From: Candidatus Nitronauta litoralis
GTDB taxonomy: Bacteria > Nitrospinota > Nitrospinia > Nitrospinales > Nitrospinaceae
Length of the DNA: 64,000 nt
Direction of reading: 5' to 3'
Assembly (NCBI GenBank): GCA_015698285.1
Contig: CP048685.1
Coordinates: 2,294,001 to 2,358,000 of the forward strand
Part shown: positions 54,447 through 64,000 of the stretch, one piece after another
Position numbering within the stretch: the stretch's first letter is position 1
How the letters are laid out: the number at the start of each line of letters is the position of its first letter
Translations under genes and position numbers: made by a program
The notes under the pieces: generated by a model
The model's input: the letters and a program-made list of their open reading frames with translations, nothing else
What the model was told of the DNA's origin: nothing
Databases searched by the model: none

Positions 54447-54464
54447 AAAAATTTCCGTCTTTAA

Positions 54465-55375
54465 AAAGTGGTGCCGGCGGACAGGGAATAAATATGTTCT
54501 GCGAAGTCGTTTGCGGATAGGTTGGAATCGCTGTTGATATGCTGGAATTGAAAGGTGATATCGAGGAAACCTGGAATCGGTTGGACGATTTTAAATGAGA
54601 CCTGGTTGACGATGTCCTGGTGTTCCATTCCAATCAGTGGTGTGATGGACTGGAAATCCTGATAAATATATTGGTAGTTGGCTCGGACTTTGATTTCCAG
54701 GTTTTCGAGCTAAGGTATCAAGTGGTCCCCGCCAATTGAAAGGTTTTGAGCGACTTAGGTGGATTGCTGGTCGCGTGTGATTTTACCTTCAGGTGAGATA
54801 AGAGAACCAGATCATCCCTTCGCCTTCATCCAGCGTTATTTAGTTGGATATCCGCAGGGTGTGGTTTTGGCCATCACGCTGTGGAATCGCAAAGGAATCC
54901 TTTATGGTTAAAGCGTATTAAAGATCAAGTAGCCAGTTTTACATAACTGAGAAAAAAAGGCCGGATGACAGCGTGTGGGTCTTTTCGAAGTCGAGTTCTC
55001 CGAGTTTTATATAACTGAAGGAATAGCCAATATTAGTTTCAATTTTTTCAAATTCCTTTGTCAGAGTGAGGGACCCTGTGTGAATCTGCATGTCGAATGA
55101 ATGCAGGGTATCGTAAATACTCTGAAAGAAACCGTAGTCAGCCTGTAGGTTGAATGACTCTGCAGGAGACCAGTTGTAAAACCAGGAAAACTGGAAAAAG
55201 TGAGAAGGTTTTCCTCGCCGGTTGGCAGGTTAATGTCGCTGAGTATGACATTGTCATTTATTAAAGCCCCTGCCCGAAATCCCGCCTGCCAGGTTTTGCC
55301 TTGATCCTGACGGGCGATTGTTCCCAGGAAATCCTTCTTATGAGGTAAGTGGTTATTATTTAATCCTTACCCTGC
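54465..55375 (-). pseudogene. decayed copy of the TPR/beta-barrel protein gene
   Basis: The minus strand encodes, in broken frames, KTWQAGFRAGALINDNVILS, NLQADYGFFQSIYDTLHSFD and TKEFEKIETNIGYSFSYIKL. These align with the barrel half of the intact gene at 57411-58925 (WRVALRAGASIDDNVTLTDL, LDTGYDFFTSIYDNLHQFDM). The TPR half is absent and several frameshifts and stops occur. It lies directly after FecR protein B, as the intact gene follows FecR protein A, so the pair was duplicated and the second barrel gene lost. Confidence 0.8.
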
Positions 55376-55379
55376 CAAT

Positions 55380-57059
55380 TCAATTGCCAATGCCAATTCC
55401 GTTACCAATACCATTAACAATGCCGTTACCAAGTCCATTTCCAACCCCATTCACGATTCCGTTGCCATTCAGGGCCGGGGAGTTTGAAGTGGTGGAAATG
55501 GCCTGCATTGTGGTTTCCTTTACAGCGTTTTTTGCCATCTGTGTTGCGGAAGCTTTGGCTGCATTTTTGGCTACCGTTTGAGCAGCCTCTTTTGCTGCTG
55601 ATTGGGCTGCATTTTTCGCTGCGTTCTTGGCTACCGTTTGAGCCGCTACTTTTGCTGCGCTCTTGGCAGCCATTTTTGCAGCATCCTTGGCCGCCATTTT
55701 GGCAGCGCTTTTAGCCGCTAGTTTGGCAACCCCTTTTGCTGCGTTTTTTGCTGCAGACTGGGCTGCTGATTTAGCAACAATCTTGGCTGCATTTTTGGCT
55801 AAGTCTCCAACCATTTCATTTCCAATTATCCCATTCGCAAGGATTTTGCTCTCAATATTTTTGAGCTTGGCGAGTTTATTTTCCAGACTTTTTCCTTTTA
55901 CGTTAAGCCCTTTGGCCAGTTTTTTCTGAAGCCCCTTTGCTTTGCCAATCCCGTTATTTACTTTTGCCTTGTTGTTGCCTTTGTTGATGGATTTTCCAAA
56001 AGCCTTTCTATTTCTAAAGTCAGCTTTTGCAGCTTTCATAATTTTGGCCATTGTCATTTTCGGCCGGTTTTTCATTTTTTTATTCGGATTGGTCTTCTGG
56101 AAAACCCTGTTCATCAAAGCCGCATCAGCTTGCTGTAACCCTATGGAAGAACCATCTTTTGAAACTTCGTGCATGGTGCCGGCAATTACAAACTCATGCT
56201 TACCTTCTTTGCCATTGGGCAGGCGGGGGAAGGTTTCGACCTTGCCTTCGAGCCCCACAATCCTTGTTTTTCCTCCCGGTTCTACAATGGTCACAAACTC
56301 AGTGCCTCTAACCCCTGCAACGGCCACTGGAGTGATGACCCGAAACATGGAACCTTCAGCTTTCCCTTTGGTGACTTTGAAACGGACAGCTCCAAGTGCA
56401 ACATTCACGATAGTCTTCCGGAAGTCGCGCTCAGGATCATAAACATGTTCGGTGATATTGACGACTGCATCCTCACCCAGGGACATGGTGCTGCCATCAT
56501 CAAAAGTGAAGGTGATCATTGAGTTCAGGTCTGTTTCCACCCGGTCCTGCATAAATACGGGTGCCGCTATTTCGGATTGATTATAGGATTCTTCTTCACC
56601 CCGGAACTGAACTGCACGGCCCTGGAGCCCTGTGGTGAGGCCGACATCGGCTGTGCTGATGATCTCTGCTTCTTTCAAGTATTGCTTTTGTTCAAAAATG
56701 GATTTCCCCGCGGGTTGATCGGAAAAGGCATAGGTGATGCGCACGAATTCCTGCTGCGATAGAGGCTGGTCCGGATTTTTGCTGGCCAATACGTTAAAAC
56801 CTTTCTCTTTCAAATTATGCGCGATCTGTCCATACAAATCCTCATCAGACAGTGCGGATGCATTGGAAGGAATAACCGAACTCTGTTTCTGGTTTTTTAC
56901 CATGAGTTTAATGAATTCCATGCGAGTGACTTCATCTTCTTCACGGGCAAACGAAAAACCAGGGGCCGCCAGAAAAGAGGCGATGAGAATTGCGCTTAAG
57001 ATCTTTCGGGACAGTCTCCCGATTTTTTTATTTGAAGTATTTATTAATAACCAACTCAT
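55380..57059 (-). CDS. secreted FecR-domain protein B with Lys/Ala-rich and Gly/Asn-rich tail
   Basis: 559 residues from ATG 57059 (AAGGAAAAA upstream); the longer frame to 57248 would pass through the sigma-54 promoter. Signal peptide to about 38 (ILSAILIASFLAAPGFSFA). An S-layer-like helical region is followed by the FecR domain (about 185-290): MITFTFDDGSTMSLGEDAVV, TIVNVALGAVRFKVTKGKAE, then VAGVRGTEFVTIVEPGGKTR. The C-terminal third is an amphipathic repeat of AAK-type units (SAAKMAAKDAAKMAAKSAAK and similar, about 420-510), and the very end is GNGIVNGVGNGLGNGIVNG-like. It is paralogous to protein A. Probably extracellular or periplasmic. Function unknown. Confidence 0.8.
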   Translation of the reverse strand: MSWLLINTSNKKIGRLSRKILSAILIASFLAAPGFSFAREEDEVTRMEFIKLMVKNQKQSSVIPSNASALSDEDLYGQIAHNLKEKGFNVLASKNPDQPLSQQEFVRITYAFSDQPAGKSIFEQKQYLKEAEIISTADVGLTTGLQGRAVQFRGEEESYNQSEIAAPVFMQDRVETDLNSMITFTFDDGSTMSLGEDAVVNITEHVYDPERDFRKTIVNVALGAVRFKVTKGKAEGSMFRVITPVAVAGVRGTEFVTIVEPGGKTRIVGLEGKVETFPRLPNGKEGKHEFVIAGTMHEVSKDGSSIGLQQADAALMNRVFQKTNPNKKMKNRPKMTMAKIMKAAKADFRNRKAFGKSINKGNNKAKVNNGIGKAKGLQKKLAKGLNVKGKSLENKLAKLKNIESKILANGIIGNEMVGDLAKNAAKIVAKSAAQSAAKNAAKGVAKLAAKSAAKMAAKDAAKMAAKSAAKVAAQTVAKNAAKNAAQSAAKEAAQTVAKNAAKASATQMAKNAVKETTMQAISTTSNSPALNGNGIVNGVGNGLGNGIVNGIGNGIGIGN

Positions 57060-57140
57060 TTTTTCCTTGCCTCCACCTACGTAGGGAAAAATTTGATTAA
57101 TATTTGAAATTGGCCCATCTGGCCTGTGCATCATTACTAG

Positions 57141-57156
57141 AGCAAGGTTGGTGCCA
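57141..57156 (-). promoter_or_regulatory. sigma-54 promoter of FecR protein B gene
   Basis: The minus strand reads TGGCACCAACCTTGCT, an exact match to TGGCAC-N5-TTGCW. The transcript would start near 57130, about 70 bases before the ATG. Confidence 0.85.
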
Positions 57157-57289
57157 TATTGATTTACATTGAACTTATTTTCTAACTTATTGAAAATAAA
57201 GGGGAGTTCTTTTTTCTTTGAAATTCGATGATAGTGCCTGTAGATCATTTATTTATTAAAGGTGGTACATTTTTTATAAACATTTACAC

Positions 57290-57307
57290 CCTGGAATGTA
57301 TTCCAGG
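57290..57307. promoter_or_regulatory. perfect inverted repeat, candidate enhancer site
   Basis: CCTGGAATGTATTCCAGG is an 8-bp perfect inverted repeat with 2-base centre, about 135-150 bp upstream of the sigma-54 promoter at 57141-57156. The position is that of an enhancer for a sigma-54 activator. A transcription-end hairpin for the preceding gene is the alternative, but no T-run follows. Confidence 0.45.
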
Positions 57308-57410
57308 AGGGGTATTAAAATGCATTTAAACGTAAGAATTATTTTTATAGGGAGGATAAAAACAGAGTAGCCCTGCTGGTTTGAAAAAAGTATGGCGAAA
57401 ACAGGGATGT

Positions 57411-58925
57411 TTAGAAAGAGGCGCCGGCGGAGAGGCTGAAGACATTCTGGACGTAATCGTTCGCCAGGAAATTGGAAGCGCTATTCATGTACTGATACTG
57501 GAATATGATATCAAAGTAGTCCATAACGGGTTGGATGATTTCAAACGAAACAGAATTTCTGAAATCTATGCGCTCCTCTCCAATAAAAGGAGTGATAAAC
57601 AGATAGTCCTGATAGGTGAAATTATAGCTGGCCCGGATTTTGGTTTTTAGCTTTTCCAGGCAGGGGACAGGGTGTACTGCACCGACAGAAATATTTTGAG
57701 CGACATAAGTGACCTGGGGATCCCGGGTCACATCCGCTTCTGGTGCATAGGAAATCCAGGCCAATCCACCGTCATCATTCAGCGTGAAATAGTTGGATAT
57801 GCGCAACGAATGGTTATGACCATCGCGCGCCGGAGCACTGACAAATATCTTGGAACTCAGGAAATAACTGAGGTCCACATACCACCAATCTTTCAGGGTA
57901 AAGCTGACACCGGAATTGAATGTGTGGATGTATTCAAAATCGATTTCATCCAGTTTTATGTAGTTGAAGGTGTAGCCCATTTTCAAGTCGACATCTTCAA
58001 AACTTTTGGTGGCATTCACAAAACCTGAATGGATTTGCATATCAAACTGGTGCAGGTTGTCATAAATGCTTGTGAAAAAATCATATCCAGTGTCCAACGT
58101 GAATGTTTCAATGGGTTCGAACTGATAAGACCCGGAAAATGAATAGAACGTCAAAAGGTCGCCAACCCCGGTCGTTAGATTTAAGTCTGTTAAGGTGACG
58201 TTGTCGTCTATGGACGCACCAGCACGTAAAGCGACTCGCCAGGGCTTGGGTGGTTTCTGGCTTTCTATCAGGGACAGGAATTCGCGTGCAGAATTGGCTG
58301 TATTGGATTCGGGGTTGGTCTGTATACAAGCTTCAAATTGTGCTTTTGCTTCTTCATACTGTTTGGCTTTGTATCTCAATAAACCTATATTGAATTTGGC
58401 CAGTTGTTCAAAGTCGGGATCCATAGACCCCGCCATATTAAAACTGTTGATGGCCTGATCCACTTTTTTCAGACCCTGTAAAGCCAGTCCTTGAAAAAAC
58501 AGGGCCGCGCCATTTCCCGGGTCCGCGTAAATAACTTTATTAAAACTGGAAAGGGCCTCGGAATAATTTTTCCTGTTGTGGTGGGCAATCCCAAGATCCA
58601 TATAGACCTGGGAATAGTCTGGATTGATCTCCAGTGCTTTTTTAAAAGCTTCAATCGCCTCGCCAAATTTACCGACCTTGTTCAGGCTTGCTCCCAGATA
58701 ATAATAAGCTTCTGCCGGAGGAGAGGCCGATTCGAGCAAACCGGATTGAAGATCTCTAATGGCTTTGGAGAACAGCCCCTTTTTATAATTTTCGATCCCG
58801 GATTTAATGGGGGTGGTTACGGTTACCGATGCGGATGACGGAAGGGGGGCTCCAATGAAAATAACCGCAAAAAATAAAAGGCAGGAAAACAAAAAAACGC
58901 CTGCCAGATTATGTCGGGCCGACAT
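57411..58925 (-). CDS. TPR plus outer-membrane beta-barrel protein
   Basis: 504 residues. Signal peptide (about 9-33). Residues about 40-215 form five TPR units (AEAYYYLGASLNKVGKFGEA, IEAFKKALEINPDYSQVYMD, LGIAHHNRKNYSEALSSFNK). About 230-504 consist of alternating strands typical of an outer-membrane barrel (LRAGASIDDNVTLTDLNLTT, LDTGYDFFTSIYDNLHQFDM, LSAGASF ending in Phe). This plan, periplasmic TPR then barrel, recalls SLAM-, PgaA- and BcsC-type exporters of surface proteins or polysaccharides, but no family is certain. It follows FecR protein A and precedes FecR protein B. Confidence 0.75.
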   Translation of the reverse strand: MSARHNLAGVFLFSCLLFFAVIFIGAPLPSSASVTVTTPIKSGIENYKKGLFSKAIRDLQSGLLESASPPAEAYYYLGASLNKVGKFGEAIEAFKKALEINPDYSQVYMDLGIAHHNRKNYSEALSSFNKVIYADPGNGAALFFQGLALQGLKKVDQAINSFNMAGSMDPDFEQLAKFNIGLLRYKAKQYEEAKAQFEACIQTNPESNTANSAREFLSLIESQKPPKPWRVALRAGASIDDNVTLTDLNLTTGVGDLLTFYSFSGSYQFEPIETFTLDTGYDFFTSIYDNLHQFDMQIHSGFVNATKSFEDVDLKMGYTFNYIKLDEIDFEYIHTFNSGVSFTLKDWWYVDLSYFLSSKIFVSAPARDGHNHSLRISNYFTLNDDGGLAWISYAPEADVTRDPQVTYVAQNISVGAVHPVPCLEKLKTKIRASYNFTYQDYLFITPFIGEERIDFRNSVSFEIIQPVMDYFDIIFQYQYMNSASNFLANDYVQNVFSLSAGASF

Positions 58926-59180
58926 AATACCCCTCCACCAAAAAAATAGAATTAGCCGTTAGATTTTAACAGCTTAGCGATTATAGACCATTTTTCAAGC
59001 CAAATATGCCGAATTAATTCCTGTAAACCATTGAAATATTTTGATTTTTTCCAGGCAGGGCAAGTTGGGTTAGCGGAGCATTAAATTTTTCAATAGTTTA
59101 TAGGTTTAAGTGGATTGACTCTATCAAGCTAATATAAAAATAAAAAAAACAACTATTTGGGTAATGAGAGACGGTATAGT
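58926..59180. other. intergenic, AT-rich, no gene
   Basis: No frame and no clear promoter for the TPR/barrel gene. It probably depends on read-through from FecR protein A or an unrecognised promoter. Confidence 0.4.
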
Positions 59181-59216
59181 TAAAAAAAAACGGGATCCCC
59201 TTTTGACTGGGTCCCG
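59181..59216 (-). terminator. rho-independent terminator of FecR protein A gene
   Basis: Minus strand: CGGGAC (59216-59211) pairs with ATCCCG around an A-rich loop, with CC/GG inside, followed by nine T (59190-59182). It ends the FecR A transcript about 80 bp past its stop, although some read-through into the barrel gene is possible. Confidence 0.7.
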
Positions 59217-59294
59217 GTGCTTGTATGAAGATTAAGAAAGCTTTACGGTCCTAAACCAATTTCTATACCTTTCCCCTTCCCTTGTCCTTTGACG

Positions 59295-60863
59295 TTAACA
59301 GGGCGGGATTAAACAACCCCCACCGCCAATTCCACCGCCACCGCCAATTCCCGGTAGGGAAATTCCACCACCACCGCCAATTCCCGGCAGGGAAATTCCA
59401 CCGCCACCTCCAATTCCCGGTAGGGAAACTCCACCTCCAGCACCAATCCCTCCACCGATTCCGCCGCTAACAACACCGGCGCTGGATTGACTCAAGCCTC
59501 CTACAACCTCCCCAATTGATTGGCCTGTTGCACTCACAGTGCTCGGGTTGCCACCAGGATCGGCGATTCCTCCAAAAGTGTTTGCGGTTGTTTTGATCAC
59601 ATCTTTTGTAGAAGCTTTTATTGAATCTTTTGCGGCCTGTATGGCGGCCTCTTTAGCTGCCTCTATTGCAGCAATCTGGGCAGCACCTATTGCAGCAATC
59701 TGTGCAGCATCTTTTGCGGCCATCTGTGCAGCATCTTTTGCGGCCTCGGTCGCTGCGGATTGCGTTGCAGCATCGCTCGCTGCTGATTGCACTACATCAT
59801 TGGCTAGGATGTTTGCCGCTTTAAGGTCTGCTCCTGTTGCTTGCATGGCTTTTGCCAGGGTCATTCCGGGTTGTTCAGTCAATGTTTGATCGGGACTTGT
59901 TTGCTGGATTACATTGTTTAACGTGGCGGCATCTGCTTTCTGCACCCCCGAAGAAGCACCGTTTTCAGAAATACTGTTCATGGTTCCTGCAGAAACCATT
60001 TCGTGTTTGCCTTCCTTGCCATTGGGAAGTCGGGAAAATGTTTCGATCAGGCCTTCAATCCCGATAAACTTTGTGTTGCCACCGGGTTCAACGATAGTCA
60101 CAAACTCGGTACCCCTGACACCCGCAGTGGCGACCGGGGTCAGCACCTTGAATATGGATCCCTCGGCTTTACCTTTGGTGACTTTAAAGCGAACCGCACC
60201 TAAAGCCACATTCACGATGGTCTTGCGAAAATCTTTATCTGGATCGTAAATGTGCTCTGTAATGTTGACCACCGCATCTTCACCCAGTGACATGGTGCTG
60301 CCATCGTCAAAGGTAAAGGTGATCATGGAATCGAGATCCGTTTCCACCCGGTCCTGCATAAAAACCGGTCCGGCCAGTTCGGATGAAGAATAGCCCTCTA
60401 CCTCATCGCGGTATTGAACGGCACGTCCTTGCAATCCGGTGGTGAGGCCCACATCAGCAGTGCTGATGATGTGAGCATCTTTTAAATATTGTTTTTGGTC
60501 GAAAAGGGACTTCCCTGCGGGTTGACCCGAAAATGCATAGGTGAGGCGGACAAATTCCTGTCGGCTTAAAGGCTGGTCCGGCTTCTTACTGTCGAGAATA
60601 TTAAATCCATTCTTCTTAAGGTTTTGCGTCACCTGTTTGTACAATTCGTCATCTGAGAGCCTGGCCGCATTTTGGGGGACCATTTTACTGGTGCTTTGCT
60701 CCTTGGCCATGAGCCGGATAAACTCCATGCGAGTCACTTCTTCTTTTTGCCCCAGGGAGTAAACGGGAAATGCGAGAAACGCGGCAACAAAAAAAGTCCC
60801 AAGCAATTTACCTAAGGGAAGTCGCTGTCTTTTCAACGAGTTTTTTATGGGTAATTCATACAT
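59295..60863 (-). CDS. secreted FecR-domain protein A with Ala-rich segment and Gly-rich repeat tail
   Basis: 522 residues from ATG 60863 (GGAG at about 10 bases); the upstream ATG at 60884 lacks a ribosome site. Signal peptide (about 18-39, LLGTFFVAAFLAFPVYSLG). The FecR domain (about 175-280) is nearly the same as in protein B: MITFTFDDGSTMSLGEDAVV, IVNVALGAVRFKVTKGKAEG, VAGVRGTEFVTIVEPGGNTK. An Ala-rich helical region (about 365-425, DAAQMAAKDAAQIAAIGAAQ) and a three-fold ISLPGIGGGGG repeat lead to a C-terminal CLIPPC. The sugar- or iron-sensing FecR context is absent (no sigma/TonB genes), so this is an independent use of the domain. Confidence 0.8.
   Translation of the reverse strand: MYELPIKNSLKRQRLPLGKLLGTFFVAAFLAFPVYSLGQKEEVTRMEFIRLMAKEQSTSKMVPQNAARLSDDELYKQVTQNLKKNGFNILDSKKPDQPLSRQEFVRLTYAFSGQPAGKSLFDQKQYLKDAHIISTADVGLTTGLQGRAVQYRDEVEGYSSSELAGPVFMQDRVETDLDSMITFTFDDGSTMSLGEDAVVNITEHIYDPDKDFRKTIVNVALGAVRFKVTKGKAEGSIFKVLTPVATAGVRGTEFVTIVEPGGNTKFIGIEGLIETFSRLPNGKEGKHEMVSAGTMNSISENGASSGVQKADAATLNNVIQQTSPDQTLTEQPGMTLAKAMQATGADLKAANILANDVVQSAASDAATQSAATEAAKDAAQMAAKDAAQIAAIGAAQIAAIEAAKEAAIQAAKDSIKASTKDVIKTTANTFGGIADPGGNPSTVSATGQSIGEVVGGLSQSSAGVVSGGIGGGIGAGGGVSLPGIGGGGGISLPGIGGGGGISLPGIGGGGGIGGGGCLIPPC
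59345..59443. repeat. tandem 33-bp repeat (three copies) inside FecR protein A
   Basis: Units begin at 59345, 59378 and 59411 with CAATTCCCGG and encode ISLPGIGGGGG on the minus strand. Length variation by slippage is expected. Confidence 0.8.
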
Positions 60864-60945
60864 GTTGTTTTGACTCCAAAACATCGCAGGTAAAATACAA
60901 TTTTAGTTTAACCTTTTGACCTTATTAAGCCAGCCAAGAATTATT

Positions 60946-60962
60946 AGCCAAGGGTTGTGCCA
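60946..60962 (-). promoter_or_regulatory. sigma-54-like promoter of FecR protein A gene (imperfect -12)
   Basis: The minus strand has a perfect -24 element TGGCAC, then AACCC, then TTGGCT where TTGCT would be expected. Flanking bases resemble those at the exact promoter before protein B. Either the -12 has one extra G or the gene has lost full activity. Confidence 0.55.
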
Positions 60963-61119: not shown

Positions 61120-63294
61120 TTAATCCAATATTTTATTTATTTGTTTTTCGAGCATTTCTTCAATGGCTTCCGGGGAAACGGGTTTTGAGTACAGATACCC
61201 CTGGATCAAATCACAGCCCAGCATTTCCATTATCTGGTCTTCTTCCTTTGTTTCTACACCTTCTACAACCGTTTTTAAGTCAAGCATTTTAGCCAGATTC
61301 ACTATGGTTTTTACAATGGCCTGATTGGACTTGATTTCAATTCCCCGGACAAAACACTGGTCGATTTTCAAGCAGTGCAAAGGCATGTCTTTAAGGTATT
61401 TCATAGAGGAGTACCCTGTTCCAAAATCATCAATAGTGAGAAGAAGTCCGAGGTCTTTGAGATCTTGCAACTTTATAAGAGCTTCTTCAGTGTCTTCCAT
61501 GATTATGCTCTCGGTCAATTCCAATTCAATGCCATGGTCTGCAGATTCCGGAGATTCCACAATTTCCTTTACCAGATCAATCGCTCCATCATGGCTGAAT
61601 TGGATTCCAGAGAAGTTGATTGAAAGCGTAAAATCGGTGAAGCCCATGTTGTGCCATTTTTTAAGCTGTGAGCATCCTTTTCTTAAAATCCATTCTCCCA
61701 TGGGGATGATTAATCCGCTTTCTTCGGCGATTGGAATGAATTTGCCTGGTGAAATGCTTCCCATTTGGGGGTGATCCCACCTGACAAGCGCCTCTGCGCC
61801 CACAACCTGCTTTGTCCTGGCATCAACTTTAGGTTGGTAGAGTAAATAGAAATGACTTTTTCCCAGGGCATTTTTGATACCGCTGACAAGAGCCAGTTTA
61901 TTGAGTGCCAGGGGTTCTAAAGAAGATTCATAAAAACTGTATCGGTTTTTCCCTAATTGTTTTGATCGTGTCAGGGCCAGATCTGCATTTTCAACAAGGG
62001 TGGTTGCACTGTTTCCGTGAAAAGGGAACAGGGCAATACCAATGCTGCAAGTCAAGTGGATATCAAAAGAATGGATGCTGAACATTTTATCGATCAGCTT
62101 CATGATCACTTCTGCAAAACGTATCGCACTTTCGGTGGTATCTACACATGGCATGAGAAGGGCAAATTCGTCACCGCGGAGTCGGTATATATTGGCAACA
62201 GGACTGAACTCATCTTTAAGTCGTTTGGAGACTTCTTTCAGAAGAATGTCCCCCCCTTGATGGCCGAGTGAATCGTTTACTCTCTTGAACTCATCCATAT
62301 CTATGTGAAACAGGCCCAGCCTGATTTTATCCAGGCCACTATTTTCCTCAAGATTTTGAATGTCTTCCAGCAGACTGTTTCGGTTTGGCAGTGAGGTGAG
62401 GTGATCGAAATACGCGAGTTGCCGGATTTTTCTCTCCATTTTGACTCGCTCAGAAATATCATGAACAATAGCCACCAATTGGATTCTGGGTTCGGCTTCC
62501 ATTAACTGAAAACGGATTTCGACCGGGTAGGTGGTGCCGTCTTTCCTGGTCTGTCTTCCTTCAAATGCTGCCTGGGTTTGCGATTCAGCCACCAGGGGGT
62601 TTAGAAGTTTACGTATACTTTCTTCATTAGTTTCTGCCAGAATATCCAAAGGAGTTAACTGTTTGACTTCATCCAGTGTGTACCCCAGATTGTTCAGCGA
62701 ACGCTTGTTCATCTGGGAAATTTTCAAGCTGGAATAGTCGAAAATATAGATCTCATTGGTGGTGTCATCCAGGATTCGATTGAGACTGGATGTTTTTTTC
62801 TTTTGGACTTTTAGTTTTCTGTATCCCTGGTTGAGCTCCCCAAGGTCATCCCGGGTTCTGGAAACGAGGGTTTGCAGGAGGTTTTTCGAAAATTCCGGGT
62901 TCGTTGCAATCAATAAATCGAGACTATCCTGCCCGATTTTAAGCAGTGTAGATTGGGTCAATGCTTTTGCTCCTGCTGCCCTTGGCTGATTGTCGATCAG
63001 GGCCATCTCCCCAAAATATTCTCCGGCCTTTCTGACGGCCAGTTCTTTTTCCTGCTTGAATATCAGAATTTCGCCTTCAAGAACAAAATAGAAAAAAGGA
63101 TCTGTTTCATTTTCCTGAAACAAAAATTCCCCTCCTTCGACCACTATGGTTTCTGAATTGGCGAGGATTTCTTCGGCTTGAGTACGGGGGATTTTCTGGA
63201 AAAACTCAAAACCCAATATTTGGTTTGCTTGCATACAGAAACTCAATACAGTTGGACTTTTTAGTGATGGGGTTATAATAATACCACCCATCAT
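61120..63294 (-). CDS. cyclic-nucleotide-binding/PAS/GGDEF/EAL signalling protein
   Basis: 724 residues; a start at ATG 63234 (MQANQILGF) is also possible, as neither has a clear ribosome site. A cNMP-binding domain (about 30-150) has GEYFGEMALIDNQPRAAGAK, the phosphate-binding cassette. A PAS domain (about 185-290) follows. The GGDEF domain (about 300-460) has the active-site motif RGDEF in place of GGDEF (RLRGDEFALLM), a variant known in working enzymes. The EAL domain (about 475-715) has AEALVRWD, ELTESI, TIDDFGTGYSS and LKIDQCFV. It could make or break c-di-GMP according to a cyclic nucleotide. No membrane helix, so cytoplasmic. Divergent from the CHASE2 gene. Confidence 0.92.
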   Translation of the reverse strand: MMGGIIITPSLKSPTVLSFCMQANQILGFEFFQKIPRTQAEEILANSETIVVEGGEFLFQENETDPFFYFVLEGEILIFKQEKELAVRKAGEYFGEMALIDNQPRAAGAKALTQSTLLKIGQDSLDLLIATNPEFSKNLLQTLVSRTRDDLGELNQGYRKLKVQKKKTSSLNRILDDTTNEIYIFDYSSLKISQMNKRSLNNLGYTLDEVKQLTPLDILAETNEESIRKLLNPLVAESQTQAAFEGRQTRKDGTTYPVEIRFQLMEAEPRIQLVAIVHDISERVKMERKIRQLAYFDHLTSLPNRNSLLEDIQNLEENSGLDKIRLGLFHIDMDEFKRVNDSLGHQGGDILLKEVSKRLKDEFSPVANIYRLRGDEFALLMPCVDTTESAIRFAEVIMKLIDKMFSIHSFDIHLTCSIGIALFPFHGNSATTLVENADLALTRSKQLGKNRYSFYESSLEPLALNKLALVSGIKNALGKSHFYLLYQPKVDARTKQVVGAEALVRWDHPQMGSISPGKFIPIAEESGLIIPMGEWILRKGCSQLKKWHNMGFTDFTLSINFSGIQFSHDGAIDLVKEIVESPESADHGIELELTESIIMEDTEEALIKLQDLKDLGLLLTIDDFGTGYSSMKYLKDMPLHCLKIDQCFVRGIEIKSNQAIVKTIVNLAKMLDLKTVVEGVETKEEDQIMEMLGCDLIQGYLYSKPVSPEAIEEMLEKQINKILD

Positions 63295-63402: not shown

Positions 63403-64000
63403 ATGACCTTTAAAAAGAAAAATGAGTACTTTTTAGGGTTTGCGGCCACTATATTCACTCTCATCATCTATAGTTTGTCGCCTGGATTTATAAAAGATCT
63501 GGAATTGCTTTACCAGAACGCGCAGTTTCACTGGCGTGGACCCGATACCCCGGGAAAGGATATTGTCATCGCCTCGGTTGATGAAAAAAGCCTGGACAAA
63601 CTTGGTCGATGGCCCTGGTCCAGGGATGTTTTTGCCCGTATTGTCGATAATTTGACCGCTATGGGTGCCAGGGTAATTGCTTTTGATATGGTATTTTCGG
63701 GCGAAGATAATAGTGGAGGGCTTCCAGGGTTCCTCAAGCTAAAGGATAAACTGGGTCAAAAAGGGATTAAGGATTCTTCTGTTTTATCCATTTTGGATGA
63801 ATCCATAGAATCCGCAGATCGGGACAACCTATTTGCTACCGCCATTAAAAATTCGAGACGAGTTGTCCTTGGATATTTTTTTCATTTTGATCCCTCCACT
63901 TTAAGCCATCTTTCGCGTAAGGAACTGGACCAGAATTTTAAAAATATTAAATCCACCCGCTTCAGGGGATTTATTAAATCAGACCAATCCATCGATCCCT
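63403..64000 (+). CDS. CHASE2-domain protein, N-terminal part (truncated by window end)
   Basis: The ATG at 63403 opens a frame that runs to the right edge. A first membrane helix (about 9-27, YFLGFAATIFTLIIYSLSPG) is followed by the CHASE2 periplasmic sensor domain: ELLYQNAQFHWRGPDTPGKD, VIASVDEKSLDKLGRWPWSR, VFARIVDNLTAMGARVIAFD. CHASE2 is usually joined to adenylate cyclase, kinase or diguanylate cyclase domains, which would lie outside the window. The closeness of a cNMP-binding signalling protein is notable. Ribosome site not clear. Confidence 0.85.
   Translation, partial: MTFKKKNEYFLGFAATIFTLIIYSLSPGFIKDLELLYQNAQFHWRGPDTPGKDIVIASVDEKSLDKLGRWPWSRDVFARIVDNLTAMGARVIAFDMVFSGEDNSGGLPGFLKLKDKLGQKGIKDSSVLSILDESIESADRDNLFATAIKNSRRVVLGYFFHFDPSTLSHLSRKELDQNFKNIKSTRFRGFIKSDQSIDP

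Follow-up and report, generated by a model that had tools for sequence, protein, structure and literature searches.

CHASE2 domains have few known inputs. In Sinorhizobium meliloti, cAMP synthesis by CHASE2 cyclases rises via the outer-membrane barrel NsrA, the receptor activating CyaK (PMC7529298, PMC13001267), and CyaK corresponds to SMb20776 (PMC5498481). Two reports naming FecR and CHASE2 together are relevant here: a Burkholderia biofilm operon, which combines FecR with a CHASE2 histidine kinase (PMC5192318), and an S. meliloti regulon, in which SMc02177, a FecR gene located beside cyaD1, is a target of cAMP, required to control infection but not to perceive the signal (PMC5498481). The role of FecR proteins outside sigma-factor systems is not agreed, and most type 11 (DUF560) barrels are without a known partner. 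In this work, we describe a module which unites a DUF560-type barrel, CHASE2 and FecR in a lineage including major marine nitrite oxidisers, and which offers candidate partners for each of them. No description of a Nitrospinota FecR/TPR-barrel/CHASE2 module was found in the literature searched, and the module is a new combination of known parts.

The analysed window is a stretch of 64,000 nucleotides, positions 2294001-2358000 of the single 3.92 Mb contig of Candidatus Nitronauta litoralis; coordinates below are those of the window unless a locus identifier or a position in kb or Mb is given. Read on the minus strand, it carries a gene for a cNMP-binding, PAS, GGDEF and EAL protein of 724 aa (61120-63294), followed by FecR A, a TPR-barrel gene, FecR B and a broken barrel gene. 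The EAL residues of the first protein are present (EALVRW, DDFGTGYSS, EGVET). A gene of a CHASE2 adenylate/guanylate cyclase (CHASE2 E 8.4e-58 and Guanylate_cyc E 4.9e-21 in Pfam) starts at 63403 on the plus strand, divergently from the other genes of the module, and occupies 63403-64000 of the window (759 aa; full gene L045:1404-3683). The initial annotation had named FecR A, barrel, FecR B and barrel remnant in this order on the minus strand, and all four are present; the end of the interval assigned to them (54465-60962) includes about 80 bases upstream of the FecR A start at 60884. What it missed were the CHASE2 adenylate cyclase and the cNMP-binding GGDEF/EAL genes, which define the module. 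The conserved unit is composed of the CHASE2 cyclase, the cNMP-binding-PAS-GGDEF-EAL protein, a FecR protein with a variable tail and the TPR-barrel.

The pairing of FecR with TPR-barrel genes, on whose recurrence the earlier reading had been made to depend, does recur in the Nitrospinota/Nitrospinaceae genomes used as relatives. In 61 genomes of the order, 19/28 TPR-barrel genes lie at most 10 kb from FecR (0.44 expected) and 17/28 are near a CHASE2 adenylate-cyclase gene (0.40 expected), and 53 of the 85 CHASE2 genes have FecR within 10 kb (1.42 expected); the expected values assume simple random placement, and the genomes are related, so that the counts are not independent trials. Some of the barrels unlinked to FecR sit at contig edges. 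The usual order is a CHASE2 cyclase divergent from the cNMP-binding-PAS-GGDEF-EAL, FecR and TPR-barrel genes. With one genome taken per species, full-length relatives of the window FecR were obtained only from Nitrospinota and from one MAG labelled Nitrospirae. Beyond Nitrospinota the evidence comes from a few individual loci and not from a survey: in five distant ones (Deltaproteobacteria, Binatia, Myxococcales; L101, L102, L103, L104 and L109) a TPR-barrel gene lies directly upstream of FecR and CHASE2 is absent from the fetched flanks, and in Bdellovibrio (L110) a FecR with a K/P-rich tail, a TPR-barrel and a CHASE2 cyclase occur together (hhalign E 4e-14). Several of the five loci also contain, after FecR, a gene of ~253 aa, which had no Pfam match in the one scanned.

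FecR A (59295-60884, minus strand) encodes 529 aa with a signal peptide, a helical N-terminal domain, a FecR domain at residues 178-278 (PF04773, E 3.5e-14) and a low-complexity tail, and its AlphaFold2 model shows the fold of periplasmic FecR/PupR signalling domains (6ovk, Z 17.5; 4m0n, Z 17.1). The tail, residues 336-529 (59298-59879, minus strand), is built of Ala-rich and then Gly-rich 11-residue repeats, with 33-nt and 24-nt tandem repeats in the DNA. FecR B (55380-57248, minus strand) encodes up to 622 aa, with the likely start at ATG at 57059 and the FecR domain at residues 235-338 (PF04773, E 2.3e-16); its tail, residues 394-622 (55383-56069, minus strand), is of Lys/Ala-repeat and Gly-Asn character and has a net charge of +34. 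The two proteins are 70% identical over 331 aa (E 4e-176), for which the former description of a nearly identical domain was too strong, while the different low-complexity tails described along with it were found as stated: after the common 331 aa they are unrelated, being Ala/Lys-, Gly- and Asn-rich. By inspection, both proteins have Sec-type signal peptides and lack a lipobox. The Pfam scan returned the FecR domain alone, and the C-terminal 8-strand TbpBBD/lipoprotein C barrel was not found in either of them; likewise a DUF4880 anti-sigma part, an ECF sigma factor and an STN-TonB receptor were detected neither in FecR A and B nor among the window neighbours scanned.

The FecR domain is preceded by a conserved helical domain of ~90 aa (60444-60755 in FecR A) without a Pfam match, which in a search of 41 genomes was confined to FecR genes of this kind. 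An SLH-like, wall-binding reading of this domain looked plausible by eye and was rejected, as the Pfam SLH match was absent even at E 10. The start of the FecR region weakly matches the RTX adhesin anchoring domain 5ix9 (sequence E 4.7e-5; fold Z 7.4), "cell surface anchoring domain" and "antifreeze protein" being the depositors' names. The giant RTX adhesin is exported by type 1 secretion.

Tails of FecR proteins linked to the barrel measure 137-489 aa (n=22) versus 58-77 aa in related barrel-less FecRs (n=7), two proteins encoded at, or close to, the ends of contigs being excluded, and long tails were seen only where a barrel adjoins. The short-tailed proteins form a separate branch of the FecR tree, set apart by one deep split, so the contrast in length may reflect a single evolutionary event. 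The charge of the basic tails was compared with that of the acidic barrels and no correlation appeared.

The intact TPR-barrel gene (57411-58925, minus strand) encodes 504 aa with a signal peptide and a TPR_1 match (Pfam, E 2.6e-26). Its AlphaFold2 model, calculated with 28 homologues (pLDDT 90.6), comprises TPR helices at residues 39-222 and fourteen beta strands between 229 and 503; the outer-membrane assignment made before is thereby supported by a confidently predicted 14-strand barrel behind TPR helices. In structure comparison the helices align to MamA and other TPR proteins. For the whole layout BcsC is the best Foldseek match among the matches listed (E 1.9e-10), and PelB is also there, which, together with the GGDEF/EAL gene of the module, could speak for an exopolysaccharide pore like PgaA, BcsC or PelB, operating under c-di-GMP, with FecR as an accessory periplasmic protein. 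We regard this as very improbable: the BcsC match reflects mostly the common TPR-plus-barrel layout at 10% identity, the strands number 14 against 16 in PgaA (PMC8406197), and no polysaccharide synthase was found among the window neighbours scanned.

The barrel part alone resembles the 14-strand porins CymA (Z 22) and OmpG (Z 21), the matches to the two spanning Z 20-22. In some genomes the barrel is retained with no FecR adjoining, and the TPR part is then shortened or missing in about half of the cases. FecR-less barrels whose TPR part is reduced, as it is in the window pseudogene, are found in L057, L065 and L069. Both features would suit a structural, porin-like barrel with a FecR scaffold, neither transport nor signalling passing through them and the linkage resulting from shared regulation. 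That explanation seems to us rather improbable, for shared regulation alone is hard to reconcile with the CHASE2 linkage to three different barrels and with the FecR-TPR-barrel fusions described below.

As for the family of the barrel, no SLAM structure occurs among the PDB matches listed, which excludes nothing, and the Pfam search gave no PF04575 (SlipAM) match for the intact protein itself. Seven to eight members of the TPR-barrel family nevertheless score above the PF04575 cut-off of 22 bits, and a TPR-less barrel encoded elsewhere in the genome (locus 2, below) reaches 47 bits with the whole profile covered. The family also aligns with barrels of that locus type, whose best scores to PF04575 are 47-54 bits, over the entire barrel (hhalign Prob 99.9, E 6e-34). 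With relatives above the cut-off and an end-to-end alignment of the family, the resemblance to SLAM, rightly noticed in the initial annotation, is more than analogy: profile comparison shows the barrel to be distantly related to those of SLAM/type 11 (PF04575), and we do not class it as a member. A scan of viral contigs with the barrel gave no matches.

This relationship bears on the cargo-exporter pair with FecR cargo that had been suggested earlier, in which a SLAM-like pore would move the FecR protein or its tail to the surface as adhesive or matrix material, the cyclase and the GGDEF/EAL protein timing the process. The SLAM part of that proposal stands, together with the TPRs and the strand number of 14, both of which SLAM shares (PMC8406197), and the restriction of long tails to FecRs adjacent to a barrel, the likeness of the FecR domain to the anchoring domain 5ix9 and the behaviour of SMc02177 as an output and not a sensor (PMC5498481) point the same way. 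On the other side, the 8-strand barrel at the C-terminus of verified T11SS cargo is missing from FecR, as is, by inspection, a lipobox, and the tail-length contrast follows the one deep split of the FecR tree and may be one event. We consider export possible, though doubtful, as the main function of the pair.

The second-barrel pseudogene (54464-55336, minus strand) consists of pieces in two frames without the TPR half. It still aligns with the intact barrel, as had been claimed, over residues 214-504 in three pieces at ~50% identity (joint E 1e-77). Its two frame changes and five in-frame stops make it a true pseudogene, and since it begins 44 bases past the FecR B stop, its TPR half is absent, not decayed. 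A tree built from 28 FecR domains joins FecR B to the only FecR of the congener G002 (support 96/91), leaving FecR A outside this pair; the identity of FecR B is 82% with the G002 protein against 73% with FecR A. We therefore reject a recent tandem duplication: the doubling took place before the lineages of the window and of G002, at least, had parted, and was followed by loss. In two congeners a single FecR and a single barrel occur, and the remnant is absent. The broken barrel itself is placed among the barrels of the same genus, on a long branch. Two further genomes, G013 and G026, carry two FecR genes ahead of one barrel (L059:11213-14522 and L071:5044-8786), as several cargos per exporter would predict. 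The G013 FecRs are sisters and neither pair groups with that of the window, so that these double FecRs look like separate events.

Broader than the link to the TPR-barrel is the link of FecR to CHASE2 cyclases. Each of the three CHASE2 genes of the genome adjoins FecR and a gene for an outer-membrane barrel, and the barrel is different each time: the TPR-barrel of the window (locus 1), a TPR-less SlipAM barrel (locus 2) and ShlB/TpsB (locus 3). Locus 2, at about 640-646 kb, comprises the TPR-less SlipAM barrel, three small paralogous secreted proteins, FecR and a CHASE2 cyclase. The small proteins (192, 192 and 215 aa; L046:1237-3229, 641.2-643.2 kb) are encoded in tandem and have a common AQDIDDVxxGLDQDF start; the two scanned gave no Pfam match, and they are candidate cargo of the locus 2 barrel. 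Locus 3 contains ShlB/TpsB, FecR, a TPS-domain exoprotein (988 aa) and a CHASE2 cyclase in one run (L050:2667-8281 onward, about 2.518-2.526 Mb). Both locus types recur in other genomes; the parts of locus 3 are present also in G002 and G022 (L131, L132). FecR and the CHASE2 cyclase are constant while the barrel changes, so FecR appears mainly tied to the cyclase, and against the export of FecR it counts that the likely cargo of loci 2 and 3 are other genes, the small secreted proteins and TpsA. The remaining three FecR genes of the genome belong to classical ECF sigma/FecR/STN-TonB-receptor sets with DUF4880 (L047, 2.05 Mb; L048, 3.38 Mb; L049, 2.10 Mb). Taken with the three CHASE2 loci, these sets mean that at every FecR locus of the genome a signal output accompanies an outer-membrane barrel, and the three barrel versions suggest a common wiring rule of outer-membrane barrel, FecR relay and CHASE2 cyclase.

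Fused counterparts exist as well. Two relatives encode FecR, TPR and barrel as a single chain of ~1140 aa adjoining a CHASE2 cyclase (L129:9193-12600, L130:5416-8847), and the barrel of the L130 fusion is of TonB-receptor type (PF00593, 42 bits). A single chain of this kind beside a CHASE2 cyclase accords with a receptor no less well than with a cargo-exporter pair. On Sinorhizobium pSymB (L154) and on pNGR234b a FecR-TPR protein of ~1200 aa is encoded directly upstream of a CHASE2 cyclase gene. In pSymB of strain ml59 this cyclase is split between frames (L154:10630-12578), and in NGR234 it is open (L155:10612-12594). From its position upstream of a CHASE2 cyclase, the pSymB FecR-TPR(-barrel) protein is probably NsrA, the receptor known for the cyclase CyaK.

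Taking NsrA-CyaK and FecA-FecR signalling as models, we hold, with little more than even confidence, that the FecR/TPR-barrel pair supplies the outer-membrane and periplasmic portion of a system which signals from the surface to cAMP and then to c-di-GMP. The genes, the predicted folds, the kept linkage and the fused counterparts are the established part of this model; protein location, contacts, signal direction and second-messenger output are what we infer. The TPR-barrel would reside in the outer membrane with its TPRs facing the periplasm, into which the FecR protein would be secreted. The FecR domain would convey the condition of the barrel, or that of the FecR tail situated within or past it, to the CHASE2 domain in the periplasm, upon which the inner-membrane cyclase would produce cAMP. 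Binding of cAMP by the adjacent cNMP-binding GGDEF/EAL protein would then change c-di-GMP and with it, probably, attachment or matrix. The system of the window would in that case be a two-gene version of the FecR-TPR-barrel receptor with CHASE2 cyclase, of NsrA-CyaK type.

For the signalling model count the proximity of FecR to CHASE2 genes, the three CHASE2 loci with their different barrels, the fused proteins of the two relatives and the pSymB and pNGR234b loci, the FecR/PupR fold, the Bdellovibrio locus and the Burkholderia operon (PMC5192318). Against it stand the five TPR-barrel/FecR loci without CHASE2 in the fetched flanks, the difference between the TonB-receptor-like barrel of NsrA type and the SLAM-like one of the window, and the dispensability of SMc02177 for perception, by which the FecR proteins considered here may be outputs. 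A more specific form of the receptor, which we think unlikely, has the mostly basic FecR tail threaded into or through the SLAM-related barrel, the FecR domain remaining periplasmic and CHASE2 reading the tail; if true, a T11SS-like pore and the cargo belonging to it would here make up a sensor of contact or of a ligand. Receptor and export readings can both hold if the tail passes through the barrel and the FecR domain is retained in the periplasm.

Among known systems, FecI-FecR-FecA shares with the module the FecR fold and an outer-membrane barrel partner, but the window lacks the ECF sigma factor, DUF4880 and the STN/TonB receptor, and its output gene is a cyclase. The RTX adhesin offers a weak match to the FecR region and has no TPR-barrel in its system. 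The BiofilmReg operon of Burkholderia (response regulator, LysM-FecR, CHASE2 histidine kinase) likewise sets FecR beside a CHASE2 sensor and has a biofilm role (PMC5192318), with a kinase instead of a cyclase, a LysM-FecR and no TPR-barrel. With T11SS (SLAM, NilB, HrpB; DUF560/PF04575) the module has in common periplasmic TPRs, a predicted 14-strand barrel and a profile-level relation of the barrels; it differs in that the partner has neither TbpBBD nor a lipoprotein C barrel and that the setting is cAMP/c-di-GMP signalling. TbpBBD/lipoprotein C cargo is rarely nearby in Cluster 3 T11SS, too (PMC12282271), and FecR is unmentioned in the T11SS surveys (PMC8406197, PMC12282271). In NsrA-CyaK of S. 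meliloti, with the pSymB protein taken as NsrA, we see again an outer-membrane barrel, FecR and TPR parts, an adjacent CHASE2 cyclase and a cAMP output (PMC7529298, PMC13001267). FecR, TPR and barrel form one chain there and are separate genes in the window; the barrel of the NsrA-type fusion is TonB-receptor-like in its Nitrospinota counterpart, whereas that of the window is SLAM-like and accompanied by a long-tailed FecR, and to the NsrA-CyaK set the window module adds the cNMP-binding GGDEF/EAL protein.
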